DNA of 14,900 nucleotides. It comes from Deltaproteobacteria bacterium (GTDB taxonomy: Bacteria > Desulfobacterota > Syntrophia > Syntrophales > UBA5619). The notes beneath the pieces are model-generated. The model did not search any database. It saw nothing but the letters and a program-made list of their open reading frames with translations, and was not told where the DNA came from. Positions within the stretch are counted from its first letter, which is position 1; every line of letters begins with the position of its first letter. The position numbers were made by a program, and so were the translations under genes. The DNA lies in assembly GCA_026388365.1 (NCBI GenBank), contig JAPLJW010000099.1, positions 1-14,900 on the forward strand, in the 5' to 3' direction. Shown here piece after piece: positions 2,535-14,900 of this stretch.

Positions 2535-3185
2535 CTATCGGGTCACTACGATGATATCGAATATGGAAGACCAGGTCATCGGTTTGACGACCGTCTCCTT
2601 CCCGAGGCGGCCCGCCATTTCCTTTGCCTCCTTTTCCGAATCTTTGGCATGGTAAACCGTATCGCTCTTAATATGGGTTGTGGAGGCCCGATCCAACCGC
2701 TCGACCTTGTAACCCAGATCCTGGAGCTTCTTGGACATGGTCCGGGCCGCTGGAAGCCCGCCGCTGCCCGCCAGCACCTTGATGCGCAGTTCCTTCGCGG
2801 CGGCAGTCTGTGTTTTCTCCTGCGTTCGTTCCTCCACCAGAGCAACTTCTTTTATCGCCACCGCTGCTTTCAATTCCTTGTTCTCCTCCAGCAGGTCATT
2901 CTTTTCTTTCTCCAGGCTCTCAATCCGGGTCTGCCTCTCGCTGACGGCCATCAGTTGGGTCTTGTCTTTCTCTTCAAACTTTTCAATCCGGGATTGCTGT
3001 TGAAGAACGACCTTCTGAAGGGCTTCGTTCCCCGATTGAAGATGCTCCACCTCCTTCTGCAGTTCCTTCTTCGATATGCTGAATTTTTTGACCTCCTCAT
3101 CCGAACTGCCGTCAAAATACCGAAACACGCCGCATCCCGAAAGAAGACAGACCAAAATCAGACAAAGAATGGCGCCTCTTTTCAT
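2535..3185 (-). CDS. Coiled-coil lipoprotein with C-terminal LytR_C-like domain
   Basis: From the chosen start the protein has 216 residues. Residues 1-18 are a lipoprotein signal: MKR, a hydrophobic core, and the lipobox LLSGC with Cys18. Residues ~38-120 are charged heptad-like sequence (KKELQKEVEHLQSGNEALQ, IESLEKEKNDLLEENKELK), a probable coiled coil. Residues ~133-216 resemble the LytR C-terminal domain (LytR_C): 'IKVLAGSGGLPAART...LGYKVERLDRAS...DTVYHAKDSEKEAKEMAGRLG...DIIVVTR'. LytR_C domains occur in envelope-associated proteins of unclear function. The start at 3185 is preferred over an in-frame ATG 13 codons earlier because a strong AGGAGG precedes it and because the signal peptide then begins with MKR. 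The protein should be anchored in the inner or outer membrane facing the periplasm. It is monocistronic, with a promoter candidate at 3295-3324 and a terminator at 2413-2450. Confidence 0.72.
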   Translation of the reverse strand: MKRGAILCLILVCLLSGCGVFRYFDGSSDEEVKKFSISKKELQKEVEHLQSGNEALQKVVLQQQSRIEKFEEKDKTQLMAVSERQTRIESLEKEKNDLLEENKELKAAVAIKEVALVEERTQEKTQTAAAKELRIKVLAGSGGLPAARTMSKKLQDLGYKVERLDRASTTHIKSDTVYHAKDSEKEAKEMAGRLGKETVVKPMTWSSIFDIIVVTR

Positions 3186-3187
3186 AA

Positions 3188-3200
3188 CCCCCCCCCTCCT
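3188..3200 (-). promoter_or_regulatory. Ribosome binding site with a nine-G run before the lipoprotein start
   Basis: On the coding strand the leader reads AGGA followed by nine G in total and TT before ATG at 3185. The AGGAGG core fixes the start codon. The homopolymer lies exactly between the Shine-Dalgarno core and the start, so gain or loss of a G would change the spacing. Confidence 0.7.
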
Positions 3201-3294
3201 GCTCTTGATGCAAAGGCTCTTCATGCAAGCCGGTTAAAATAAATCCTTTCCCAAAGAGCTTTGTTCTATAAATCGTTACTTTTTTGATGGGTAA

Positions 3295-4199: not shown

Positions 4200-5843
4200 A
4201 TGGCAGCAAAAACCTATGCACCCGGAGAATGTTACCAGTATCAGTTGCTCATCAAGCACCTGCTTGCCACACCGCTATTTTTTGCGCCGGACCAGGAGAT
4301 CGTTTACCGGGATAAGGTCCGCCTGACCTATCGGAAGGTCAACGAACGGATCCACCGCCTGGCCAACGGTCTGGCGAAGCTGGGCGTCGCGGAGGGCGAT
4401 ACGGTCTGCGTCTTCGACTACGACAGCCATCGCTACCTGGAGTGTTTCTTCGCCATTCCGATGATGGGGGCGGTTCTCCACACCCAGAACTGGCGTCTCT
4501 CCCCCGAGCAGATCCTCTACACGATGAACCATGCGGAGGACAAGGTCGTCCTCATCCATGAGGAGTTCCTGCCCCTCTTGGAGGCCATTTACGACAAGCT
4601 CACGACCGTAAAAAAGATCATCCTGATCTCCGAGAGCGGCCAGAAACCCGCCACGAAAATCCCGTTCGCTGCGGAGTACGAGGGGCTTCTCCAGGGGGCC
4701 GCCGACTTCTGCGACTTCCCGGATCTCGATGAGAACACGCGGGCCACCACCTTCTACACGACGGGGACGACCGGTCTGCCCAAGGGGGTTTCCTTCTCCC
4801 ACCGGCAGCTCGTCCTGCACTCCCAGGCCATGGCGATCAGCGTCGGCGCCTATGAATCGGTCGGCCGGTTCCGCTCCGACGATGTTTACATGCCGATCAC
4901 CCCGATGTTCCACGTCCACGCCTGGGGGCTTCCCTACACGGCGACGATGCTGGGGGTCAAGCAGGTCTATCCGGGCAAGTACGAGCCGCCCATGCTCCTC
5001 AAGCTGATCCTCACGGAAAAGGTGACCTTTTCCCACTGCGTCCCGACGATCATCCACATGCTGGTGTCGAGCCCGGTCGTCAAGACCCTCGATCTCTCCA
5101 AATGGCGGGTGGTCATCGGGGGGGCGCGTCTCCCCAAGGGGCTCGCCCAGGCGGCGACGGCCCTCGGGATCCAGATCTTCGCCGGTTATGGGATGTCGGA
5201 GACCTGCCCGCTGATCTCGCTGGCGAACCTGAAGCCATCGATGCTCGGCTGGGAGAAGGAGCGGCAGATCGACCGCCTCATCATGACAGGGCTTCCCGTG
5301 CCCCTCGTCTATGCGAAGATTGTCGATGCGAATGGCAAGGACCTGCCCCACGACGGGGTTGCGACGGGCGAACTGGTCCTCCGGGCGCCGTGGCTGACCG
5401 AGAGCTACTATAGGGATCCGGAGCGGACGAAGGATCTCTGGCAGGACGGCTGGCTCCATACAGGCGACGTCGCCTACATCGATTCCGAGGGGTACATCCA
5501 GATCACCGACCGGATCAAGGACGTGATCAAGACCGGCGGCGAGTGGGTCTCCTCGCTCGATCTGGAGAATTTGATCAGCATGCATCCCGCGGTCTCCGAG
5601 GCGGCGGCGATCGGCGTCCCGGATGCCAAGTGGGGCGAGCGGCCGCTCCTGGTCATCGTGCTGAGGCCGGAGTCCAAGGGAAAGGTCACGGAGGAGGAGA
5701 TCAAGGCCTTCATGTTCCAGAATGCCGCTGCGGGGAAGATCCCCAAGTACGGCATCCCGGACAAGTATATGTTCGTGGATGAGATTCCCAAGACCTCGGT
5801 CGGGAAGATCAACAAGGTCCAGCTCCGGAAACAGATGATCTGA
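4200..5843 (+). CDS. Acyl-CoA synthetase (AMP-forming fatty acid:CoA ligase, AlkK/FadD-like)
   Basis: The protein has 547 residues, the usual size. It activates a carboxylic acid with ATP to an acyl-adenylate and then to acyl-CoA in the cytoplasm. The ANL-superfamily motifs are all visible. The P-loop-like TTFYTTGTTGLPKG is at 183-196 (K195), and YGMSET at 330-335 (adenylate binding). DGWLHTGD is at 416-423 (D423 contacts the ribose), followed by ITDRIKDVIKTGGEWVSS, the hinge and C-domain region. The SVGKINK near the C-terminus contains the catalytic lysine (about K536). The layout (LTYRKVNERIHRLANGL, MFHVHAWGLPYTATMLGVKQVYPGKYEP) resembles medium- and long-chain fatty acyl-CoA ligases of the AlkK type; the chain length or aromatic specificity cannot be told. 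AGGAGGAAATCTT precedes ATG at 4200. It is the first gene of an operon: the acyl-CoA dehydrogenase starts 17 bases after its stop. Confidence 0.92.
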   Translation: MAAKTYAPGECYQYQLLIKHLLATPLFFAPDQEIVYRDKVRLTYRKVNERIHRLANGLAKLGVAEGDTVCVFDYDSHRYLECFFAIPMMGAVLHTQNWRLSPEQILYTMNHAEDKVVLIHEEFLPLLEAIYDKLTTVKKIILISESGQKPATKIPFAAEYEGLLQGAADFCDFPDLDENTRATTFYTTGTTGLPKGVSFSHRQLVLHSQAMAISVGAYESVGRFRSDDVYMPITPMFHVHAWGLPYTATMLGVKQVYPGKYEPPMLLKLILTEKVTFSHCVPTIIHMLVSSPVVKTLDLSKWRVVIGGARLPKGLAQAATALGIQIFAGYGMSETCPLISLANLKPSMLGWEKERQIDRLIMTGLPVPLVYAKIVDANGKDLPHDGVATGELVLRAPWLTESYYRDPERTKDLWQDGWLHTGDVAYIDSEGYIQITDRIKDVIKTGGEWVSSLDLENLISMHPAVSEAAAIGVPDAKWGERPLLVIVLRPESKGKVTEEEIKAFMFQNAAAGKIPKYGIPDKYMFVDEIPKTSVGKINKVQLRKQMI

Positions 5844-5847
5844 GAAT

Positions 5848-5853
5848 GGAGGA
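5848..5853 (+). promoter_or_regulatory. Ribosome binding site that sets the acyl-CoA dehydrogenase start
   Basis: GGAGGA lies seven bases before ATG at 5861. The alternative in-frame ATG at 5846 overlaps this site and has none of its own, so 5861 is the likely start. Confidence 0.75.
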
Positions 5854-5860
5854 AAAAACC

Positions 5861-7003
5861 ATGGATTTTGAACTCACCGAAGAACAGAAGATGCTGCAGG
5901 AGATGGCCTACCGCTTTGCGAAGGCCAATTTCACCTCCGTTTCGCAGGAGTGCGACGAACAGGAGAAATACACGGCGGAGATCCGGAAGAAAGGGGCGGC
6001 CCAGGGCCTCGTCGGCGCCTGGATTCCGGAGGAGTATGGCGGCGCCGGCGCGGGCTGCATGGGGAACGCCATCATCACCGAGGAACTCTCGAAGGTGGAT
6101 ATGGGGATCGGTCTCAACGTCGGGGCCGCGAGCTTCGGCTGCGAGGCCATCCTCCAGTATGGCTCCGAAGAGCAGAAGAAGACCTGGCTCCCGCCGGTCT
6201 GCAGCGGCGAGAAGGTCAGCGCGGGGGCCTTCACGGAGCCGAATGCCGGCACGGATGTCGCCGGCTACAAGACGCGGGCCGTCAAGGACGGGGGCGACTA
6301 CGTGATCAACGGGAACAAGATGTTCATCACCAACGGCACGGTCTGCGATTTCATGGTGACCCAGTGCATCACGAATCCCGAGGAGAAGAAGCACAACAGC
6401 TTCAGCCTGATCATCGTGCCTTCGGATGCGAAGGGGATCACCCGGAACAAGATCCACGGGAAGATGGGGATCCGCGCGAGCGACACGGCGGAGATTGCCT
6501 TCGAGGATGTCCGGGTTCCGCAGACCAACCTGGTCGGGAAGGAGGGGCACGGATTCCGCGAACTCATGCACTTCTTCGACACCACCCGCGTCATGGTCGC
6601 CGCCCAGGCCCTCGGCCTTTCCGAGGCCTGCCTCGAGACCAGCATCAAGTACGTCAAGGAGCGGACCGCCTTTGGTGCGCCGCTGGGGGCCTACCAGCTC
6701 ACCCAGATGAAGCTGACCGAAATGGCCATCCGGATCGAGGCGCTCCGGGGGCTCATCTACAAGTCGGCCTGGCTGATCGATCAGGGGCGGCCGGACTACA
6801 TCCTCGCGGCGATGGCGAAGTTCTTCGGCGGCCAGACCGCCGTTTTCTGCGCGAACTACGCCGTTGAGCTCCACGGGGGATACGGCTACATCGAGGAGTA
6901 CCCCGTCCAGAAGTGGTACCGCGACGCCAAGATCCTCGAACTCTACGAGGGGACGAAGGAGGCGGAGATCATGACGATCGGCCGCTACCTCCAGGCAAGG
7001 TAG
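5861..7003 (+). CDS. Acyl-CoA dehydrogenase (classical YEGT type)
   Basis: The protein has 380 residues from the start chosen by its ribosome site (MDFELTEEQKML, a typical family N-terminus). It would use FAD to oxidise acyl-CoA to 2-enoyl-CoA, passing electrons to electron-transfer flavoprotein. Signatures: GAFTEPNAGTDVAGYKT (122-138, flavin and substrate contact), GIRASDTAEIAFEDVRVP, TAFGAPLGAYQLTQMKL, AVELHGGYGYIEEYPVQKWYRDAKILELYEGTKE. The glutamate in LYEGT (about E363) is at the position of the catalytic base of short- and medium-chain acyl-CoA dehydrogenases. Translationally close to the acyl-CoA synthetase upstream, it probably oxidises the thioester that enzyme makes. A flavoprotein gene follows 65 bases later. 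Confidence 0.92.
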   Translation: MDFELTEEQKMLQEMAYRFAKANFTSVSQECDEQEKYTAEIRKKGAAQGLVGAWIPEEYGGAGAGCMGNAIITEELSKVDMGIGLNVGAASFGCEAILQYGSEEQKKTWLPPVCSGEKVSAGAFTEPNAGTDVAGYKTRAVKDGGDYVINGNKMFITNGTVCDFMVTQCITNPEEKKHNSFSLIIVPSDAKGITRNKIHGKMGIRASDTAEIAFEDVRVPQTNLVGKEGHGFRELMHFFDTTRVMVAAQALGLSEACLETSIKYVKERTAFGAPLGAYQLTQMKLTEMAIRIEALRGLIYKSAWLIDQGRPDYILAAMAKFFGGQTAVFCANYAVELHGGYGYIEEYPVQKWYRDAKILELYEGTKEAEIMTIGRYLQAR

Positions 7004-7068
7004 CCCAAATGGCCGGATCCCTATGCACCTTGGAAATTTCCGTTTATGAACAATGAAGGAGACCCCCT

Positions 7069-8103
7069 GTGAAGACGCGCATTACCGAACTGTTCGGCAT
7101 TTCCTATCCCATTCTCCTCTCCGGCATGAGCTGGATCAGCGTTCCGAAGATGGTGGCGGCCGTCTCCAATGCGGGGGGGCTGGGTATTCTTGCCACGGGT
7201 CCCTTTGACGCGGAGCAGACGCGGCAGGCGATCCGGGAGATCCGGAGCCTGACCGACAAACCCTTCGGCTGCAACGCCACGCTCCTCATTCCGGGGGCCG
7301 CGGAGAATGCGAAGGTCATGCTTGCGGAGAAGGTCCCGGTCATCAACTTCGCGCTGGGAAAGGGCGACTGGATTGTTAAGGGGGCCCACGAGTACGGCGG
7401 CAAGGTGATCGCGACCGTGGTCAACGCCCGCCATGCGAAACGGGCCGAGGAGTATGGGACGGATGGGGTGATCGCAACCGGACACGAGGCGGCGGCCCAC
7501 GGCGAGGCGGTGACCTCGCTCGTCCTCGTCCCGAGCCTGGTGGACGCCGTGAAAAGCCCGGTGATCGGGGCGGGTGGTTTCGCGGACGGCCGGGGGCTGG
7601 CGGCGGCGCTGGCTCTGGGGGCGGAGGGGATCGCAATGGGGACCCGTTTCATGACGACGCAGGAGAGCCCGCTCCACGCGAACTTCAAGCGGCTCTCCAT
7701 CGAAAAGGAGATCACCGACACCCTCGCCTCGCCCCGGATCGACGGGATCCCCTGCCGGGTCCTGAAAACCGAAACGGCTCTGAAGGCCGAGCGGCGAGGG
7801 CTTGACCTCATCGCGGCCTTCTTCAATTCCCGGGAGATCGCCGCCCAGCTCCATGTGCCCTACCTGAAGCTCTGCCTCGGCGTGATGGCTTCCGGCTGGA
7901 AGAACGCCCGGCAGCTCGCCTTCATGGCCAATGGCTTCAAGGCCTTCCGCCTTGCGACGGAGAACGGCGATCTGGAGAGGGGGATCCTTCCCGTGGGGCA
8001 GGTGATGGGTCTCCTCCGCGACGAGCCGACGGTGAAGGAAGTGGTCGAACGGATCGTGGCCGAGGCGAAGCAGGTCCGGGAGAGGCTCGCCGGGCAGCTT
8101 TGA
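7069..8103 (+). CDS. Nitronate monooxygenase / FabK-like FMN flavoprotein
   Basis: The protein has 344 residues and starts at GTG 7069, preceded by AAGGAGA at a normal distance. It is a TIM-barrel FMN protein of the 2-nitropropane dioxygenase / enoyl-ACP reductase II family. Seen: N-terminal FGISYPILLSGMSWIS (barrel strand 1 of 'YPIiqgpM'), AVSNAGGLGIL, GHEAAAHGE (138-146) aligning with the 'G.EaGGH.g' loop, so H144 is likely the catalytic histidine. The phosphate-binding VIGAGGFADGRGLAAALALGAEGIAMGTRF (165-194) follows. Database names for such genes are usually nitronate monooxygenase. In an anaerobe, next to acyl-CoA synthetase and dehydrogenase, a CoA-linked reductase role is at least as plausible. 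Probably the last gene of the operon; no clear terminator follows. Confidence 0.82.
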   Translation: MKTRITELFGISYPILLSGMSWISVPKMVAAVSNAGGLGILATGPFDAEQTRQAIREIRSLTDKPFGCNATLLIPGAAENAKVMLAEKVPVINFALGKGDWIVKGAHEYGGKVIATVVNARHAKRAEEYGTDGVIATGHEAAAHGEAVTSLVLVPSLVDAVKSPVIGAGGFADGRGLAAALALGAEGIAMGTRFMTTQESPLHANFKRLSIEKEITDTLASPRIDGIPCRVLKTETALKAERRGLDLIAAFFNSREIAAQLHVPYLKLCLGVMASGWKNARQLAFMANGFKAFRLATENGDLERGILPVGQVMGLLRDEPTVKEVVERIVAEAKQVRERLAGQL

Positions 8104-8363: not shown

Positions 8364-11246
8364 TCATTGCGACAGCGCCGCCTTGTATGCTGCGTCGTAG
8401 GAGCCGGTCGGGACAATATCTGCGGCCGCAAAATTGGTGGCATAGCTGAAGGCGTTATTGAACTTGGCGCCGCAGGTGGTGGAATTGATCGGCAGCAGCA
8501 TGACGGGGCCATTCGTATCTGAAAAGGGTTCTTGCTTCGCCATATCAGCGATGCCCATGGAGCCGTTCGCCGTCTTATAGATGTTCTTGATTCCTTTCCG
8601 AATCCATGTGGGATATGAACACTGTGCAAAGTCTATCCAGTAGTTGCTCATAGGAGGTGCTGGAGGATCACTGGGCACGCCCCAATACCCGATGGCCAGC
8701 GTCAGGACCCTGTATTTTTTCACCATGTCCGGGTCTTTCTGTGTGGCATTGGCGAAGTAAAGCGAATAATCCCAGCTCAGAAAATACCGGTATGACTGAT
8801 TAAAATTGTTCAAGACTTGTCCCAGGTAATCGGCCAGGGAAGACGTAACGGACGCATTCAAAGAAGGATTCATCTGGTTGAAGGTCATGACGCCGTTGGG
8901 GTAAGCGGCGTAGGTAAGACCCCGGATGATCTGGTAAGGGCCGGCCGTTTGCAGGAATAAGAGAGCCGAGGGCTTTGACTGCTTGTACTGGAACACGGGG
9001 AACCAGGGCGATTTAAGCGTTGCCTTGTTTTCTTCATAAAGGGAAAGCGGGTTCTTCATCGGGTCGGTATAGGGGATAACATCGTCGTCCGTAAGAAAGT
9101 AATCCCCCGACCCCGAGTACCTGATGCCCTTTAGATTAAGAAAACCCAGCTGATTGTTTTGATCCCAGACAAAGGGGATATAGCCGCCCGGCGCGCTGCT
9201 CCAGATCTGCGCGTTGTGCGGCTCCAGGAGTGTCTTCACGATGTAGTTGTAGGCATCGATATTGCCGAGTGCCTTGTACAACCTGCTTTCCCGTCCATCG
9301 CCGCCCTCTTTTCCCAGCATCTCGACGCTGAAGCTCGTCAGCAGGGCATCATTGAGATCCACCCCCTGCGACAACTGCAGGGCGATCATGTCAAACGCAT
9401 TGTCCCGAAAGTGGGAATAGAACGTATTGAAGAGATTGCTCATGTCGGGACTCACTTTACTGATGGCAAAGCCGCTGAGAAAGTGCAGGTAGGAGTTGAG
9501 TTGGCCCAGCCTGTCCACAATCATAAGCAAAATGGAGATATTCGGGAATCCGGCGATCTTTGTGGACTGGCCGGGGATATCGAGGTTGGGGCGAAGCTGG
9601 GGAATCACCTGGTCGTAGGCGGTGGTATCGAATCCGCTCACAAACATCTTGTCCACGCGCATGATGTTGCTTCCCTGCACCGAGGGGGCAAAGACGCGGC
9701 GCCCATTTTTAAGCAAGCGGAGCTCCCTCTCATAGTCCTGATACAGGGACGGTCCGCCGCCGCCTGGCTGACTCGAGGCCGCTGCCCCCTTCGCCTCTAC
9801 AGCGGCTTCTGCCGCCTCGGCCTGGGCCCTGTCTTGGTCAGGTGTCTTTTTTTTGTCCTGCTGATAGGTTTTCCACTCGTCGTAGGATGAGAAGCAGCTG
9901 TCGGGAGGTTCAGCGGGGCTTTTCTTCTTTTCCACCGGGGCCGGGAGCGTCAAGGTACCCATGACGGGAAGATTGCTCAAGGCGGGAACCGATATCGGCG
10001 ACGCTTCATTGCTCAGCATGGAAAAAAGAGAGTTGGCCCAGGCGGTCGTGTCGATGACGCCTGCGGGCAGCGACCGCGCTGTAACGACCGTGTTCTTGTA
10101 GGCGGTGGCCCAGCCGCTTTGCCGGGCCCCCCCGACATTCGCCGAACCGCTCCCGCCGAAGCCGAGACCCGAATAGCTGACGGCAAGCGCCGCGTCGTAG
10201 ATATTTTCCGAATTGCCGCTGCTTGAACCGAATTGAAGCTGACCGTTTCCCATACCGTAGTTCATGGCGCTGATGTGCGAGACAAAAGAATCCCCGTGAT
10301 AGCTGTAGAATTGCTGTATCGCGTTCGATATGTAGCCCTTCATGAGGAGCATGTTCGCCGTTAATGTCTTCCGAATAGTCGCATCGCTGTACGTATTGTA
10401 CTGGGTTCTCAGAAGGCTGAAAATCCTTTCCATCTCTCCCAGGAGTTGAATGTTGCCGTAGGCGTTTTCTTGATCGTCGAGCTGCCCGTTGTTGACGATA
10501 GTTACGGTCTTGACATACTTGTCGCCGGTTTGGCCGGTGACGTATGCCTCCGTGTAAGCGACGCGCGATTTTACCGTGGCGTCGTCGAGCTTGGCGCCGA
10601 CCAGGTAAGAGGTAAAGCTCGCATTCCGGTTAAAGCCGCCCGTCAGCACGGCCACGTAGGCCCCGCTATTGTTGTACGACATCGTCACATTCACCGTTCC
10701 ATCGGAAGAGGCGTCCTGGCGTTTATTTTCCTGGTGATAGGCCGCGCTGGCCTTTAATCCGCCGTAACTGCCGGACAACGTGAAGTCGTACCGTTCCTGC
10801 CCCGAGTGGGAGGAAGCGCTGCTGTTGCTCACCAGTTTGATTTCCGTGACGGCCTGCGTACCGCTGGAGAGGTTGACGTCTATATAGTTATCCTTGTCCA
10901 GCAACGAGAGATCAAAAACCGGCTGCACGATATAGGTAGAATTTGCGGTACTGACTTTCGCTCCGATGGTCATATTTTTTACCGAGTCGATGGTTATCGG
11001 TGTGCCGTTGGCGCCCAACTGATCGCTCGTCAGATAGATTTGAAGATCGTCCTCCTCCATTTTTGCCTGCTCTGACAGCGTGGGGTACTGCGCCGTCAGG
11101 CTTCGTGAACTCGATGAATTGCAGCCCCAGACAAGCATGAGCAGGAGAGGCATTCCTGAGGCAAGAAAAAGCAACAAACGTGAGCGCAGCAAGGGAAGGG
11201 AGCAAGCGCCGGATCCTTTTTTCTTCCATACAACATGACCTGTCAT
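8364..11246 (-). CDS. Large predicted lipoprotein with MACPF-like segment, function unknown
   Basis: The protein has 960 residues. The start at 11246 is fixed by AGGAGGT (11254-11260) seven bases upstream; the frame stays open a further 103 codons but that part has no signal. Residues ~22-41 form a hydrophobic signal ending in a lipobox-like LVWGC (Cys42; Trp at -2 is unusual), followed by a Ser-rich tether. Residues ~60-435 are Ser/Gly/Asn-rich and beta-prone: LSGSYGGLKASAAYHQENKR (157-176), NVTMSYNNSGAYVAVL, a helix 265-315, then GDSFVSHISAMNYGMGNGQL (318-337) and VSYSGLGFGGSGSANVGG (356-373). That order, especially 'GDSFVS.I..', resembles the MACPF/CDC pore-former core; this is pattern recognition, not a search. 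Residues ~438-500 are a charged Ala/Lys/Pro linker. Residues 500-960 are aromatic-rich and unrecognised. The gene is monocistronic, in DNA poorer in GC than its neighbours, so possibly acquired. It is probably surface or periplasmic. Confidence 0.75.
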   Translation of the reverse strand: MTGHVVWKKKGSGACSLPLLRSRLLLFLASGMPLLLMLVWGCNSSSSRSLTAQYPTLSEQAKMEEDDLQIYLTSDQLGANGTPITIDSVKNMTIGAKVSTANSTYIVQPVFDLSLLDKDNYIDVNLSSGTQAVTEIKLVSNSSASSHSGQERYDFTLSGSYGGLKASAAYHQENKRQDASSDGTVNVTMSYNNSGAYVAVLTGGFNRNASFTSYLVGAKLDDATVKSRVAYTEAYVTGQTGDKYVKTVTIVNNGQLDDQENAYGNIQLLGEMERIFSLLRTQYNTYSDATIRKTLTANMLLMKGYISNAIQQFYSYHGDSFVSHISAMNYGMGNGQLQFGSSSGNSENIYDAALAVSYSGLGFGGSGSANVGGARQSGWATAYKNTVVTARSLPAGVIDTTAWANSLFSMLSNEASPISVPALSNLPVMGTLTLPAPVEKKKSPAEPPDSCFSSYDEWKTYQQDKKKTPDQDRAQAEAAEAAVEAKGAAASSQPGGGGPSLYQDYERELRLLKNGRRVFAPSVQGSNIMRVDKMFVSGFDTTAYDQVIPQLRPNLDIPGQSTKIAGFPNISILLMIVDRLGQLNSYLHFLSGFAISKVSPDMSNLFNTFYSHFRDNAFDMIALQLSQGVDLNDALLTSFSVEMLGKEGGDGRESRLYKALGNIDAYNYIVKTLLEPHNAQIWSSAPGGYIPFVWDQNNQLGFLNLKGIRYSGSGDYFLTDDDVIPYTDPMKNPLSLYEENKATLKSPWFPVFQYKQSKPSALLFLQTAGPYQIIRGLTYAAYPNGVMTFNQMNPSLNASVTSSLADYLGQVLNNFNQSYRYFLSWDYSLYFANATQKDPDMVKKYRVLTLAIGYWGVPSDPPAPPMSNYWIDFAQCSYPTWIRKGIKNIYKTANGSMGIADMAKQEPFSDTNGPVMLLPINSTTCGAKFNNAFSYATNFAAADIVPTGSYDAAYKAALSQ

Positions 11247-11390: not shown

Positions 11391-11885
11391 GTATCCAGGG
11401 GTTCCATCCCCAGATTGATGAGCGATATCGATCCGTACCCCCATTTTATCCTTGTCCCGCGTATCGAAACGTGCTTTATCTTTCCCGCAGCCGCGGCCAT
11501 CGCAATGAAGATAACCTCGACGTCCGCTTGGCCAGCAGAAACTTCTTGTCGGCATTTATTCTTAAGAGATATCCGCTAATCCTCATTCAGCTCAATATCC
11601 TTGATTACGAGATGGCGCAGCTACCGTTCCAGAATACCCCGCCTTTGCTCCCACGATGCACAAACACATGCGAAAATCGACCTATTTCCCCCGGGACGAT
11701 AGAGACATCGTCTCCACCGAGATAATCCCTGTAGAACGCATTTATCGCATACCAAAACGCAGACACCTCTATCTTTTTGTAGCAGCGGCCGAGGGTAATG
11801 TTGCATAAAATCAAGACTTTTCCGCAAAGCTCGGCACAATGGCCGCATTGCGCTGCACCTTGCTTGTCCGGCGATCGGATCGCCG
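11391..11885 (-). pseudogene. Probable broken, unidentified gene
   Basis: On the minus strand one frame, open from about 11885 to TAA at 11605, reads protein-like: CGHCAELCGK, AFWYAINAFYRDYLGGDD, VSIVPGEIGRFSHVFVHRGS and KGGVFWNGS. At about 11620 the sense seems to move to the frame one base earlier: LRHLVIKDIELNED, a TAG (where CAG would give Gln), then RISLKNKCRQEVSAGQADVE, VIFIAMAAAAGKIKHVSIRG and on to a stop near 11391. One frameshift and one nonsense change would thus restore about 160 codons. There is no convincing start or ribosome site (TTG at 11814 is possible). I recognise no family. It could instead be chance open frame in non-coding DNA; the region is poorer in GC than its neighbours. 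Confidence 0.3.
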
Positions 11886-11906: not shown

Positions 11907-13172
11907 TTACCACCCCTTCGTCCACATCTCTTCGTCCTCGTAGACCTTTTCGTCGTTCTGGGCGGCCTCCTCGGCGTCCGCCTCGATCATCCGGCCGGGA
12001 TTGGGATCCTTCAGGAGCTCGCGGTAGTACTCGTGCTGGATGAGGAGGTTCATGATGTCGTTCGTGCCCGTCCAGATCTGGATCAGGCGGGTGTCGCGGA
12101 TCATCTTCTCGATCGGGAAGACGTTTGTGTAGCCGATGCCGCCGACGACCTGCATGGCGAGGTTGCAGACGTTCCAGGCCGTGTCCGTCGCGAATTTCTT
12201 GGCCTCGCTGACCATGCGCCGGCTGGCTGGCAGGTCCGCATCGACGCTTTTGCCCGCTGCATGCGTCAGCGCCCGGGCGGCGTCGAGCTGGGTAATCGCG
12301 TCGGCCACCTTGAAACTGACTCCCTCGAAGTTCCGGATCTTCTGGCCGAAGGCCTTCCGGCGGTCGGAGTAGCGGGCCGCCACCTCCAGCGCGGCACGGG
12401 CCATCCCCAGGGAGCCGCCGGCCGAGGTGAGGCGCTCCGGAACCATCATCGTGTCGAAGATGAGCGCCCCCTGGTTAAGACCGCCGATGAGGTTCTCCGC
12501 CGGGACCTTCACGTCCCGGAAGATCAATCTTCCCGTCCCACCGCCCCGGGTTCCGAGCAGCTTGTAGAGGTACTTCACCTCGACGCCCGGCCGGTCCTTT
12601 TCGATCAGGATCAGGCTGATCCGCTCGCGGGGCTTGCCCGCCGGGTCCGTGTTGCAGTAAACGATGAAGAAGTCCGCCCCGTCTGCGGCGACGACGAACC
12701 GCTTCTGTCCCTTCACCGTGAACCAGCCCTCCTTCAGACCGGCCCGGGTCGCGGCGCCGAAGAAATCCGAACCGCCGCGGGGTTCCGTCAGCGCCTCCGC
12801 GGAGATCAGATCCCCCCTGAGCAGCGGTTTCAGGAACTTCTCTTTTTGCTCTTCCGTACCGAAAGAGTGGAGGGCCTGCCCCACGATGGAGGGCATCGAG
12901 AAGGCGCAGCCGAGGGCGGTTCCGAGGACGCCCACCTCCTCCAGGGCGGCGATCTCCGCACTCCAGGGGAGTCCCCGGCCGCCGTACTTTCGATCGAAGC
13001 GCAGGCCGAGGAGGTTATGTTCTCCCAGCGCCTTCACGAATTCGCGGGGGTAGGTGATTTCGTCCCGGTCCATCTTCCGAATCAGGTCGGAGGAGACCTC
13101 CCGCTTGACGAACTCCCGGACCTCCTGCTTCAAGTCGATCTCTTCCGGGGTCAACAGAATGTCCTGCAGCAT
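11907..13172 (-). CDS. Acyl-CoA dehydrogenase, isovaleryl-CoA-dehydrogenase-like active site
   Basis: The protein has 421 residues, longer than usual because of an acidic C-terminal tail (~395-421). It would use FAD to oxidise an acyl-CoA. Signatures: EALTEPRGGSDFFGAAT (126-142), LGTRGGGTGRLIFRDVKVP, RRKAFGQKIRNFEGVSFKVAD, QVVGGIGYTNVFPIEKMIRDTRLIQIWTGTND. At the usual catalytic-base site the motif is WTGT (T368) rather than YEGT, while helix G carries PERLTSAGG with E246. That matches the arrangement known from isovaleryl-CoA dehydrogenase, where the base is a helix-G glutamate and the C-terminal site reads GAGT. A branched or otherwise unusual acyl-CoA substrate is therefore likely, but not determined. 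AAGGAGG precedes ATG at 13172. It lies downstream of rpe on the same strand, separated by a repeat element, so probably a separate transcript. Confidence 0.9.
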   Translation of the reverse strand: MLQDILLTPEEIDLKQEVREFVKREVSSDLIRKMDRDEITYPREFVKALGEHNLLGLRFDRKYGGRGLPWSAEIAALEEVGVLGTALGCAFSMPSIVGQALHSFGTEEQKEKFLKPLLRGDLISAEALTEPRGGSDFFGAATRAGLKEGWFTVKGQKRFVVAADGADFFIVYCNTDPAGKPRERISLILIEKDRPGVEVKYLYKLLGTRGGGTGRLIFRDVKVPAENLIGGLNQGALIFDTMMVPERLTSAGGSLGMARAALEVAARYSDRRKAFGQKIRNFEGVSFKVADAITQLDAARALTHAAGKSVDADLPASRRMVSEAKKFATDTAWNVCNLAMQVVGGIGYTNVFPIEKMIRDTRLIQIWTGTNDIMNLLIQHEYYRELLKDPNPGRMIEADAEEAAQNDEKVYEDEEMWTKGW

Positions 13173-14062: not shown

Positions 14063-14274
14063 GGTTGAACCTGCAACGGTTTAGTGTGCATGGATGTATG
14101 AATGGAAAAGCGGTTATGGATATTCCGGCCGTTTTCCGGATGCAACGTCCCGTGGGGCGCTCGCCCCGATCGTACTGCCGGGACTTTCATACACCATCAT
14201 CAGTGCCGTGTCAATGTTCCGGCCATCGCATGGAAGCGATTTGCAACCCCTACACCATCCATGTGCATTCTTAA

Positions 14275-14318
14275 GAAAGTATGCAACTATAAATCAGTTT
14301 GCATTTTATAATACTTTC
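14275..14318. promoter_or_regulatory. Nested inverted repeat, probable HicB operator
   Basis: The outer arms GAAAGTAT (14275-14282) and ATACTTTC (14311-14318) are perfect inverted copies. Inside them ATGCAAC (14281-14287) pairs with GTTTGCAT (14297-14304) with one extra base. The repeat covers the -10 box of the hicAB promoter, as expected for autorepression by an antitoxin with a DNA-binding domain. Confidence 0.55.
14284..14312 (+). promoter_or_regulatory. Promoter candidate for hicAB
   Basis: A consensus TATAAT lies at 14307-14312, 21 bases before the hicA start codon. The -35 at 17-base spacing (CAACTA, 14284-14289) is poor, which suits a repressible promoter, but the -35 placement is uncertain. 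The remaining intergenic sequence back to rpe (14063-14274) shows only small GC-rich stems such as GGGGC/GCCCC at 14154-14167. Confidence 0.5.
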
Positions 14319-14333
14319 CGGCATAAGAGATCC

Positions 14334-14588
14334 ATGAACGCAAAACAGAAAAAGACCTTGGTCCTGATCTTTGAGAAGCCGACACGTTCAGATATTTCAT
14401 GGCAGGAAACCGTTTCGCTTCTCCTTGGAATCGGTGCTGTTATGAAAGAGGGCAATGGATCTCGCGTAAGATTCAAGTGCCGTGATTACAGTCTTCATGT
14501 TCATGCGCCACACCCGGAAAGGGTCATATCGAAAGGCACGGTCGAGGCGATACGGGGTTTTTTAACGGACATAGGAGTTACACCATGA
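14334..14588 (+). CDS. hicA: HicA-family toxin (mRNA interferase)
   Basis: The protein has 84 residues, the expected size for a HicA/YcfA toxin with a double-stranded-RNA-binding-like fold that cleaves mRNA. Seen: N-terminal helix ISWQETVSLLLGIGAVMKEG ('i.w.el..ll..lGa...eg'), the GSRVRF strand, SLHVHAPHPERVISKGTV with H55, H57 and H60 (the 'H.PHP...l.kg.v' variant in which a histidine is probably catalytic), and AIRGFLTDIGV at the end. The start at 14334 is chosen because the longer open frame back to 14094 crosses the promoter and reads unlike HicA; the ribosome site is weak (AAGAGA). Its stop overlaps the hicB start by ATGA (14585-14588), so translation is coupled. Confidence 0.88.
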   Translation: MNAKQKKTLVLIFEKPTRSDISWQETVSLLLGIGAVMKEGNGSRVRFKCRDYSLHVHAPHPERVISKGTVEAIRGFLTDIGVTP

Positions 14589-14900
14589 AAAATATTTTGC
14601 AGCATAAAGGGTACGCCGGAAATGTTCAATTTGATCCGGATGATATGATTTTCTACGGTCGCGTCATGGGGATGAAGAAGGCCCATATCGCCTATGAGGG
14701 AAAGACTGTTGACGACCTTGTGAAAGATTTCCGGGATGCCATTGATGATTACCTCAATATGTGCGCCGAAGAGGGCATTGAACCCGAAAAGCCCTTCAAG
14801 GGCACGTTCAATCTCCGCCTTGATCCCGAGCTCCACAAACGTCTGGTCGTGAATGCTACCGACCAAGGTATGACACTGAACGCTTTCGTCAAGGGTATCC
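14585..14900 (+). CDS. hicB: HicB-family antitoxin, N-terminal part (runs off the window)
   Basis: 105 residues are visible before the window ends. The first ~75 residues form the HicB domain that holds the toxin: HKGYAGNVQFDPDDMIFYGR, then MGMKKAHIAYEGKTVDDLVK, then DFRDAIDDYLNMC. From about residue 80, GTFNLRLDPELHKRLVVNAT and DQGMTLNAFVKGI match a ribbon-helix-helix DNA-binding domain, so this antitoxin should repress its own promoter. TAGGAG lies nine bases before the ATG, which overlaps the hicA stop. Only the last residues of the ribbon-helix-helix domain should be missing. Confidence 0.9.
   Translation, partial: MKNILQHKGYAGNVQFDPDDMIFYGRVMGMKKAHIAYEGKTVDDLVKDFRDAIDDYLNMCAEEGIEPEKPFKGTFNLRLDPELHKRLVVNATDQGMTLNAFVKGI

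Follow-up and report, generated by a model that had tools for sequence, protein, structure and literature searches.

The window, a 14,900-nucleotide stretch of contig JAPLJW010000099.1 from a deltaproteobacterium, encodes on its minus strand a 960-residue protein that we favour, on balance, as a divergent MACPF-fold lipoprotein, a pore former tethered to the surface, directed at its target by the C-terminal half and probably working like the BSAPs of Bacteroidales. We read it in this way because its order of lipid anchor, MACPF domain and C-terminal part matches the layout of the BSAPs, and it is from these and other MACPF proteins that we infer surface location, target binding, oligomerization and pore formation. 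The gene runs from an ATG at 11246 to a stop codon at 8364-8366, with GAGGAGG a few bases 5' of the ATG. The same open frame extends upstream to an alternative ATG at 11555; we prefer the start at 11246, which fits both the signal peptide and the ribosome site. Relatives at 32-66% identity retain the frame, the layout and many invariant positions in both halves, which marks the open reading frame (ORF) as a real gene; a chance ORF was ruled out in view of the conservation of frame and layout in 58 other members, 57 of which are 864-1180 amino acids (aa) long, the exception being P0053 (559 aa), which begins in the linker between the two halves. A first-pass annotation of the window had proposed a lipoprotein gene of this length with a MACPF/CDC-like core. 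Frame, signal peptide and a lipobox-type cysteine (Cys42) bear out the first of these proposals, and the second is supported by structure prediction and fold search of the N-terminal half.

8364..11246, minus strand: gene for the 960-aa predicted MACPF-fold lipoprotein, stop codon included (58 other family members)

Foremost in the evidence is a model of the N-terminal half (m5937ea708463) built on an alignment with 59 relatives, with a predicted local distance difference test score (pLDDT) of 69, in which a helical block is framed by two long beta-hairpins and the motif GDSFVS stands immediately before strand 3. When the PDB was searched with this model using Foldseek, 29 of the 30 matches at E <= 1e-3 were MACPF pore structures, which occupy ranks 1-29 (best E 2.1e-9); the gasdermin 6vfe follows at rank 30 (E 9.3e-4). 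By this model the N-terminal half is predicted to adopt the MACPF/CDC fold, a bent four-stranded sheet with two hairpin segments around helices, and we class the protein as MACPF-fold by its predicted structure and not as a member of PF01823. The succession of a strand (GSYGGLKASAAY, residues 159-170), a helical stretch and GDSFVS, first read from the letters, recurs in the model, where GSYGGLKASAAY lies N-terminal to the predicted helical block and to GDSFVS. Six of the twelve best 13-residue spans for beta-amphipathy fall inside the predicted hairpins; as these cover about one-third of the part examined, the enrichment is mild and weak as evidence. The predicted elements are as follows.

10764..10862, minus strand: strand 1 of hairpin 1, residues 129-161 (model, block-mean pLDDT 45-62)
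10647..10757, minus strand: strand 2 of hairpin 1, residues 164-200 (model, block-mean pLDDT 51-70)
10296..10496, minus strand: helical block ahead of the signature, residues 251-317 (model, block-mean pLDDT 89-97)
10278..10295, minus strand: MACPF-signature-like GDSFVS, residues 318-323 (family alignment and profile comparison)
10167..10277, minus strand: strand 3 of hairpin 2, residues 324-360 (model, block-mean pLDDT falling from 70 to 41 toward the tip)
10068..10160, minus strand: strand 4 of hairpin 2, residues 363-393, with a model break at 377-382 (block-mean pLDDT 31-60)
10011..10049, minus strand: helix behind strand 4 with Trp403 (model; Trp in 59 of 60 rows)

An alignment of profiles, weak yet above most of its controls, is suggestive of the same relationship. 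The comparison set of bacterial MACPFs was fetched with PF01823 from Pseudomonadota genomes, 7 of 11 loci each yielding a profile. Compared with these, the N-terminal half of the family (59 rows, 42 after filtering) aligned in hhalign over 100 columns with a score of 27.9 (P 0.011) at a probability of only 3.8%, placing GDSFVS opposite GSHLVT of a bacterial MACPF and WANSLF opposite WAKSVM. The reversed N-terminal half scored 17.3 and the C-terminal half 14.8, and the score of 27.9 was reached by none of 100 shuffles by column, none of 100 in blocks of 5, two of 100 in blocks of 15 and four of 100 in blocks of 30. An initial comparison against three MACPFs had aligned a different stretch containing GSYGGLKASAAYHQENKRQDASS to the strand of locus L007 that precedes the L007 signature (probability 2.2%). 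The spacing from signature to conserved Trp is 86 here; six of the seven bacterial MACPFs have 83-93 and the remaining one 109, the Trp closest to 90 being counted where there were several. The MACPF signature motif is [YW]-G-[TS]-H-[FY]-x6-GG, and the family departs from it, although position and register agree with the bacterial MACPFs: its own signature is mostly [HN]-G-D-[SA]-F (Gly in 59, Asp in 55 and Phe in 57 of 60 rows), none of the 60 rows has His at the position of the motif's His, Tyr precedes the Gly in one row only, and behind strand 4 a conserved Pro-x-Gly (Pro in 59 and Gly in 54 of 60 rows) stands instead of Gly-Gly.

Export and lipidation of the protein are predicted from its N-terminus. 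A lipobox-like N-terminal Cys is found in 53 of the 58 Met-started family rows, or in 41 under a stricter pattern; the LVWGC of the window protein lies outside the strict set, and in P0059, one of the 53, the Cys sits behind a weak signal. The residue following this Cys is Asp in one of the 53 rows. By the rule for E. coli, a missing Asp at this position points to the outer membrane as the destination. The first-pass description of an Ala/Lys linker followed by an aromatic-rich C-terminal half agrees with composition, residues 436-520 being 15.3% Ala and 10.6% Lys and the share of F, W and Y being 13.6% in the C-terminal half versus 9.0% in the N-terminal half.

11124..11246, minus strand: signal peptide, residues 1-41, ending LVWG (read from the sequence; lipobox-like Cys in the family)
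11121..11123, minus strand: Cys42, the probable lipid-anchored residue, followed by Asn and not Asp (sequence and family comparison)
9690..9941, minus strand: Ala/Lys/Glu-rich linker, residues 436-519 (composition)
8367..9689, minus strand: C-terminal half, residues 520-960, unrecognised (no believable sequence match; low-confidence model alone)

The C-terminal half had also been called unrecognised, which holds as an absence: it has no Pfam or NCBIfam match and no credible PDB sequence match. The sole model that covers it, a whole-protein model from 15 rows, is poor overall, with block-mean pLDDT of 57-88 over residues 571-710, mostly helical there. Residues invariant over the 60 rows include W682, GGY at 687-689 and LLP at 917-919. 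Among proteins of 0.55-1.75 times the query length, to which the search was limited, this half was found solely behind the N-terminal half described here, bar the 559-aa P0053.

The family as it stands consists of 58 other proteins (P0002-P0059) from two protein searches combined, a first one of 12 rows and a later one with the C-terminal half of 58 rows, the window protein being counted once in each; as candidates in both searches were scored on the condition of shared short words, more members are possible. Scanning genome contigs added three loci, in a Rubrivivax metagenome-assembled genome (MAG), Comamonas testosteroni JL40 and Acidovorax sp. MR-S7, and named members also come from Ottowia, Delftia, Pigmentiphaga and a Geobacteraceae MAG. 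The distribution is sparse, with one of 399 genomes in the order of genome G003 and three of 399 in its family, both counts including G003 itself, which was chosen as a carrier. No relatives were found in viral contigs (tblastn) or in plasmids. In a tree built quickly from 59 of the 60 rows, the window protein groups with P0002-P0007 (seven rows) and most of the others, including the Rubrivivax MAG, form a separate group of 40 rows; several long branches leave the deep order unsure.

The gene had further been described as standing alone in DNA poorer in guanine and cytosine (GC), suggestive of acquisition, and here the description stands whereas the suggestion is weakened. The gene is alone on its strand, with 660 bases to the upstream same-strand gene (11907-13172, minus strand) and a convergent downstream neighbour (7069-8103). 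Its GC content is 54.6%, and 0.70 at third codon positions (GC3), against 60.7-65.9% and 0.76-0.89 in eight of the nine other window genes measured, while the ninth (2535-3224), at 52.8%, lies below it; the lowering is real, though not unique in the window. Member genes are below their surroundings in four of five Burkholderiales loci (0.658/0.714, 0.658/0.673, 0.642/0.669 and 0.647/0.666), and in locus L002 the member gene is slightly richer (0.593/0.580). Because the lowered GC is not unique in the window and the Burkholderiales loci are mixed, low GC, the only sign of acquisition, is weak evidence for it. The product of the GC-poor gene at 2535-3224 (minus strand) is predicted to be a small lipoprotein; it has a LytR_C domain, and its middle part, judged by eye, resembles a coiled coil.

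In Burkholderiales the MACPF-like gene is an optional module tied to a hydrolase cassette. At four loci (L002, L003, L013 and L014) it comes right after a same-strand gene for a lipoprotein of about 690 aa, at a gap of about 70-100 bases between ORF or match ends. Close by in all four are an alpha/beta hydrolase, whose signal looks Tat-like by eye, and a serine hydrolase of the beta-lactamase fold, at L013 beyond the MACPF-like gene. AraC-type regulator genes are present in three of the four. Of 399 genomes from one family, eight have the cassette lipoprotein, and the MACPF-like gene is present in three of these eight and in none of the 391 others (hypergeometric 5e-6, or 3e-4 without the centre genome, neither value being corrected for kinship); the two draws of 399 genomes behind these counts, one for each gene, appear identical. 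No MACPF-like gene was found at loci L031-L035, all of which have the cassette lipoprotein: L031 and L032 retain both hydrolases and AraC genes, one other has a serine hydrolase and an AraC gene, and two have an AraC gene alone. Since the cassette lipoprotein also occurs without it, the MACPF-like gene looks like an add-on. A by-eye label of the cassette lipoprotein as GH64/thaumatin-type was not used, Pfam giving at best E 0.067, in two of the four. Downstream of the cassette in Acidovorax (L003, 10785-16284, plus strand) lie genes for large proteins with IPTL-CTERM and choice-of-anchor domains.

By analogy with the BSAPs and other MACPF proteins, the protein would leave the cytoplasm through Sec, lose its signal peptide by cleavage ahead of Cys42 and receive a lipid there, and its destination would be the outer membrane, probably the cell surface or vesicles. 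The C-terminal half would bind the target, upon which the N-terminal MACPF domain would oligomerize and the segments at about residues 129-200 and 324-393 insert into a neighbouring cell's membrane as beta-hairpins that line a large pore. That such a pore would serve in attack on neighbouring cells is likewise suggested by BSAPs and CDC-like proteins (CDCLs).

Several results weigh against this reading of the protein. Template-modelling scores (TM-scores) of the fold matches are low and the hairpins are modelled with low pLDDT, and the fold search with the earlier whole-protein model (15 sequences, pLDDT 48) returned neither MACPF nor any other useful match. The profile match envisaged in the first-pass annotation was not obtained: a Pfam search of the window protein gave no family at E <= 10, neither PF01823 nor PF01289, and 15 members scanned from the 60-row set lacked PF01823, showing instead nine unrelated families with a best E of 0.024. 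PF01823 also gave no match in genome G003, which carries a member; the profile does detect MACPFs in 3 of 398 and in 3 of 274 genomes, one genome being common to both draws and the second draw being the class of one PF01823-positive genome from the first. Seven PF01823 matches, two neighbouring pairs among them, were seen in a single genome of about 2 Mb (G1389; L015 and L017-L022). NCBIfam searches gave no match; PDB sequence rows 5g2x (E 1.8) and 4ija (E 0.027) were dismissed as chance, and a further PDB sequence search of the family returned no rows. These results would fit an N-terminal half of some other hairpin-rich fold, gasdermin-like or a model artefact, whose resemblance to MACPFs came from long hairpins modelled as in a pore state, and the gasdermin at rank 30 is in keeping with this, as are the matches in the viral library, weak ones in which phage maturation proteins make up most of the best 50 of 591 at E <= 10 (the one match at E <= 1e-3 is nameless). 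We consider such a fold unlikely, given that the well-modelled part is the MACPF-like helical block running into the signature, that all higher ranks are MACPFs and that the separate sequence evidence arrives at the same register.

Alternatively, and as the main rival, the protein may be a MACPF-fold lipoprotein with a role other than that of a weapon, such as adhesion, nutrient capture or remodelling of its own membrane, in Burkholderiales serving the adjacent cassette of exported hydrolases. The position of the gene directly behind the cassette lipoprotein and beside the hydrolases, its restriction, among the 399 genomes, to those with that lipoprotein and the protein transport or nutrient use proposed for Bth-MACPF (PMC2954219) all speak for it; yet the window has no cassette gene at E <= 1e-3, the MACPF-like gene is by appearance an add-on to a cassette that occurs without it, and BSAPs, bacterial lipoprotein MACPFs for which there are tests, kill bacteria (PMC12853789). 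We regard this role as rather doubtful. Far more improbable is a degenerate or inactive relic of a chance acquisition, with which the sparse distribution and a GC content below eight of nine window genes would be consistent, as the frame is intact across 960 codons and the layout and invariant positions of both halves are held among distant relatives.

If the surface-tethered pore former is the correct reading, the proteins could tentatively be seen as an undescribed antibacterial family outside Bacteroidota, each with a large C-terminal targeting domain of new fold, which joins a cassette as an optional module in Burkholderiales and stands alone in the window lineage. The same layout in both lineages, missed by Pfam, would then extend the reach of complement-like proteins in Gram-negative bacteria, and the new C-terminal domain would be a candidate aiming part.

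Elsewhere in the window, genes at 4200-8103 (plus strand) and 11907-13172 (minus strand) encode an AMP-binding enzyme, two acyl-CoA dehydrogenases and a nitronate monooxygenase-type protein, a set that suggests a fatty-acid degrader as host. A HicA-type toxin gene (Pfam HicA_toxin, E 6.1e-7) followed by a HicB-like frame (by eye) cut by the window end, at 14094-14899 (plus strand), is a probable toxin-antitoxin pair. Rfam and tRNA scans of the window found nothing, and promoter-like and terminator-like sites number four and five against 2.7 and 4.5 expected.

The literature searched, including the available parts of PMC4999547 and PMC8986115 and with most subscription journals outside its coverage, does not describe the family. 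Of known systems, the best fold match of the N-terminal half is the pleurotolysin B pore (9do7, 9do6 and 4v2t), in its pore state and at 8-10% identity. Pleurotolysin B is fungal, has an aegerolysin partner and lacks a lipid anchor. A weaker match is the CDC-like pore structure 9ccp (E 0.024). The CDC-like proteins of Bacteroidota belong to the MACPF/CDC superfamily and form antibacterial pores of Gram-negative bacteria; they were found via PF01289, which the window protein does not match, and are two-component and protease-activated (PMC11169675). Closer in layout is Bth-MACPF (BT_3439), likewise a predicted bacterial lipoprotein with a MACPF domain and with extra C-terminal domains, detected only in its closest homologues; it differs in its length of 558 aa and its membership of PF01823 (PMC2954219). 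According to the same source, bacterial MACPFs outside Bacteroides lack lipoprotein signal peptides, to which the family described here would be an exception. The nearest parallel is with BSAP-1 and the other BSAPs, termed the first MACPF proteins of bacteria to show bactericidal activity, which have in common with the window protein an N-terminal lipidated Cys (predicted here), a MACPF domain and a C-terminal domain; in BSAPs the C-terminal domain is responsible for receptor binding, and oligomerization and pore formation are probably the work of the MACPF domain (PMC12853789). BSAPs are described from Bacteroidales with a PF01823 domain and a surface-export signal (PMC12853789), whereas the family presented here, known from sequence alone, has no PF01823 match in the window protein, a C-terminal half of about 440 aa and named members from Burkholderiales and a Geobacteraceae MAG.
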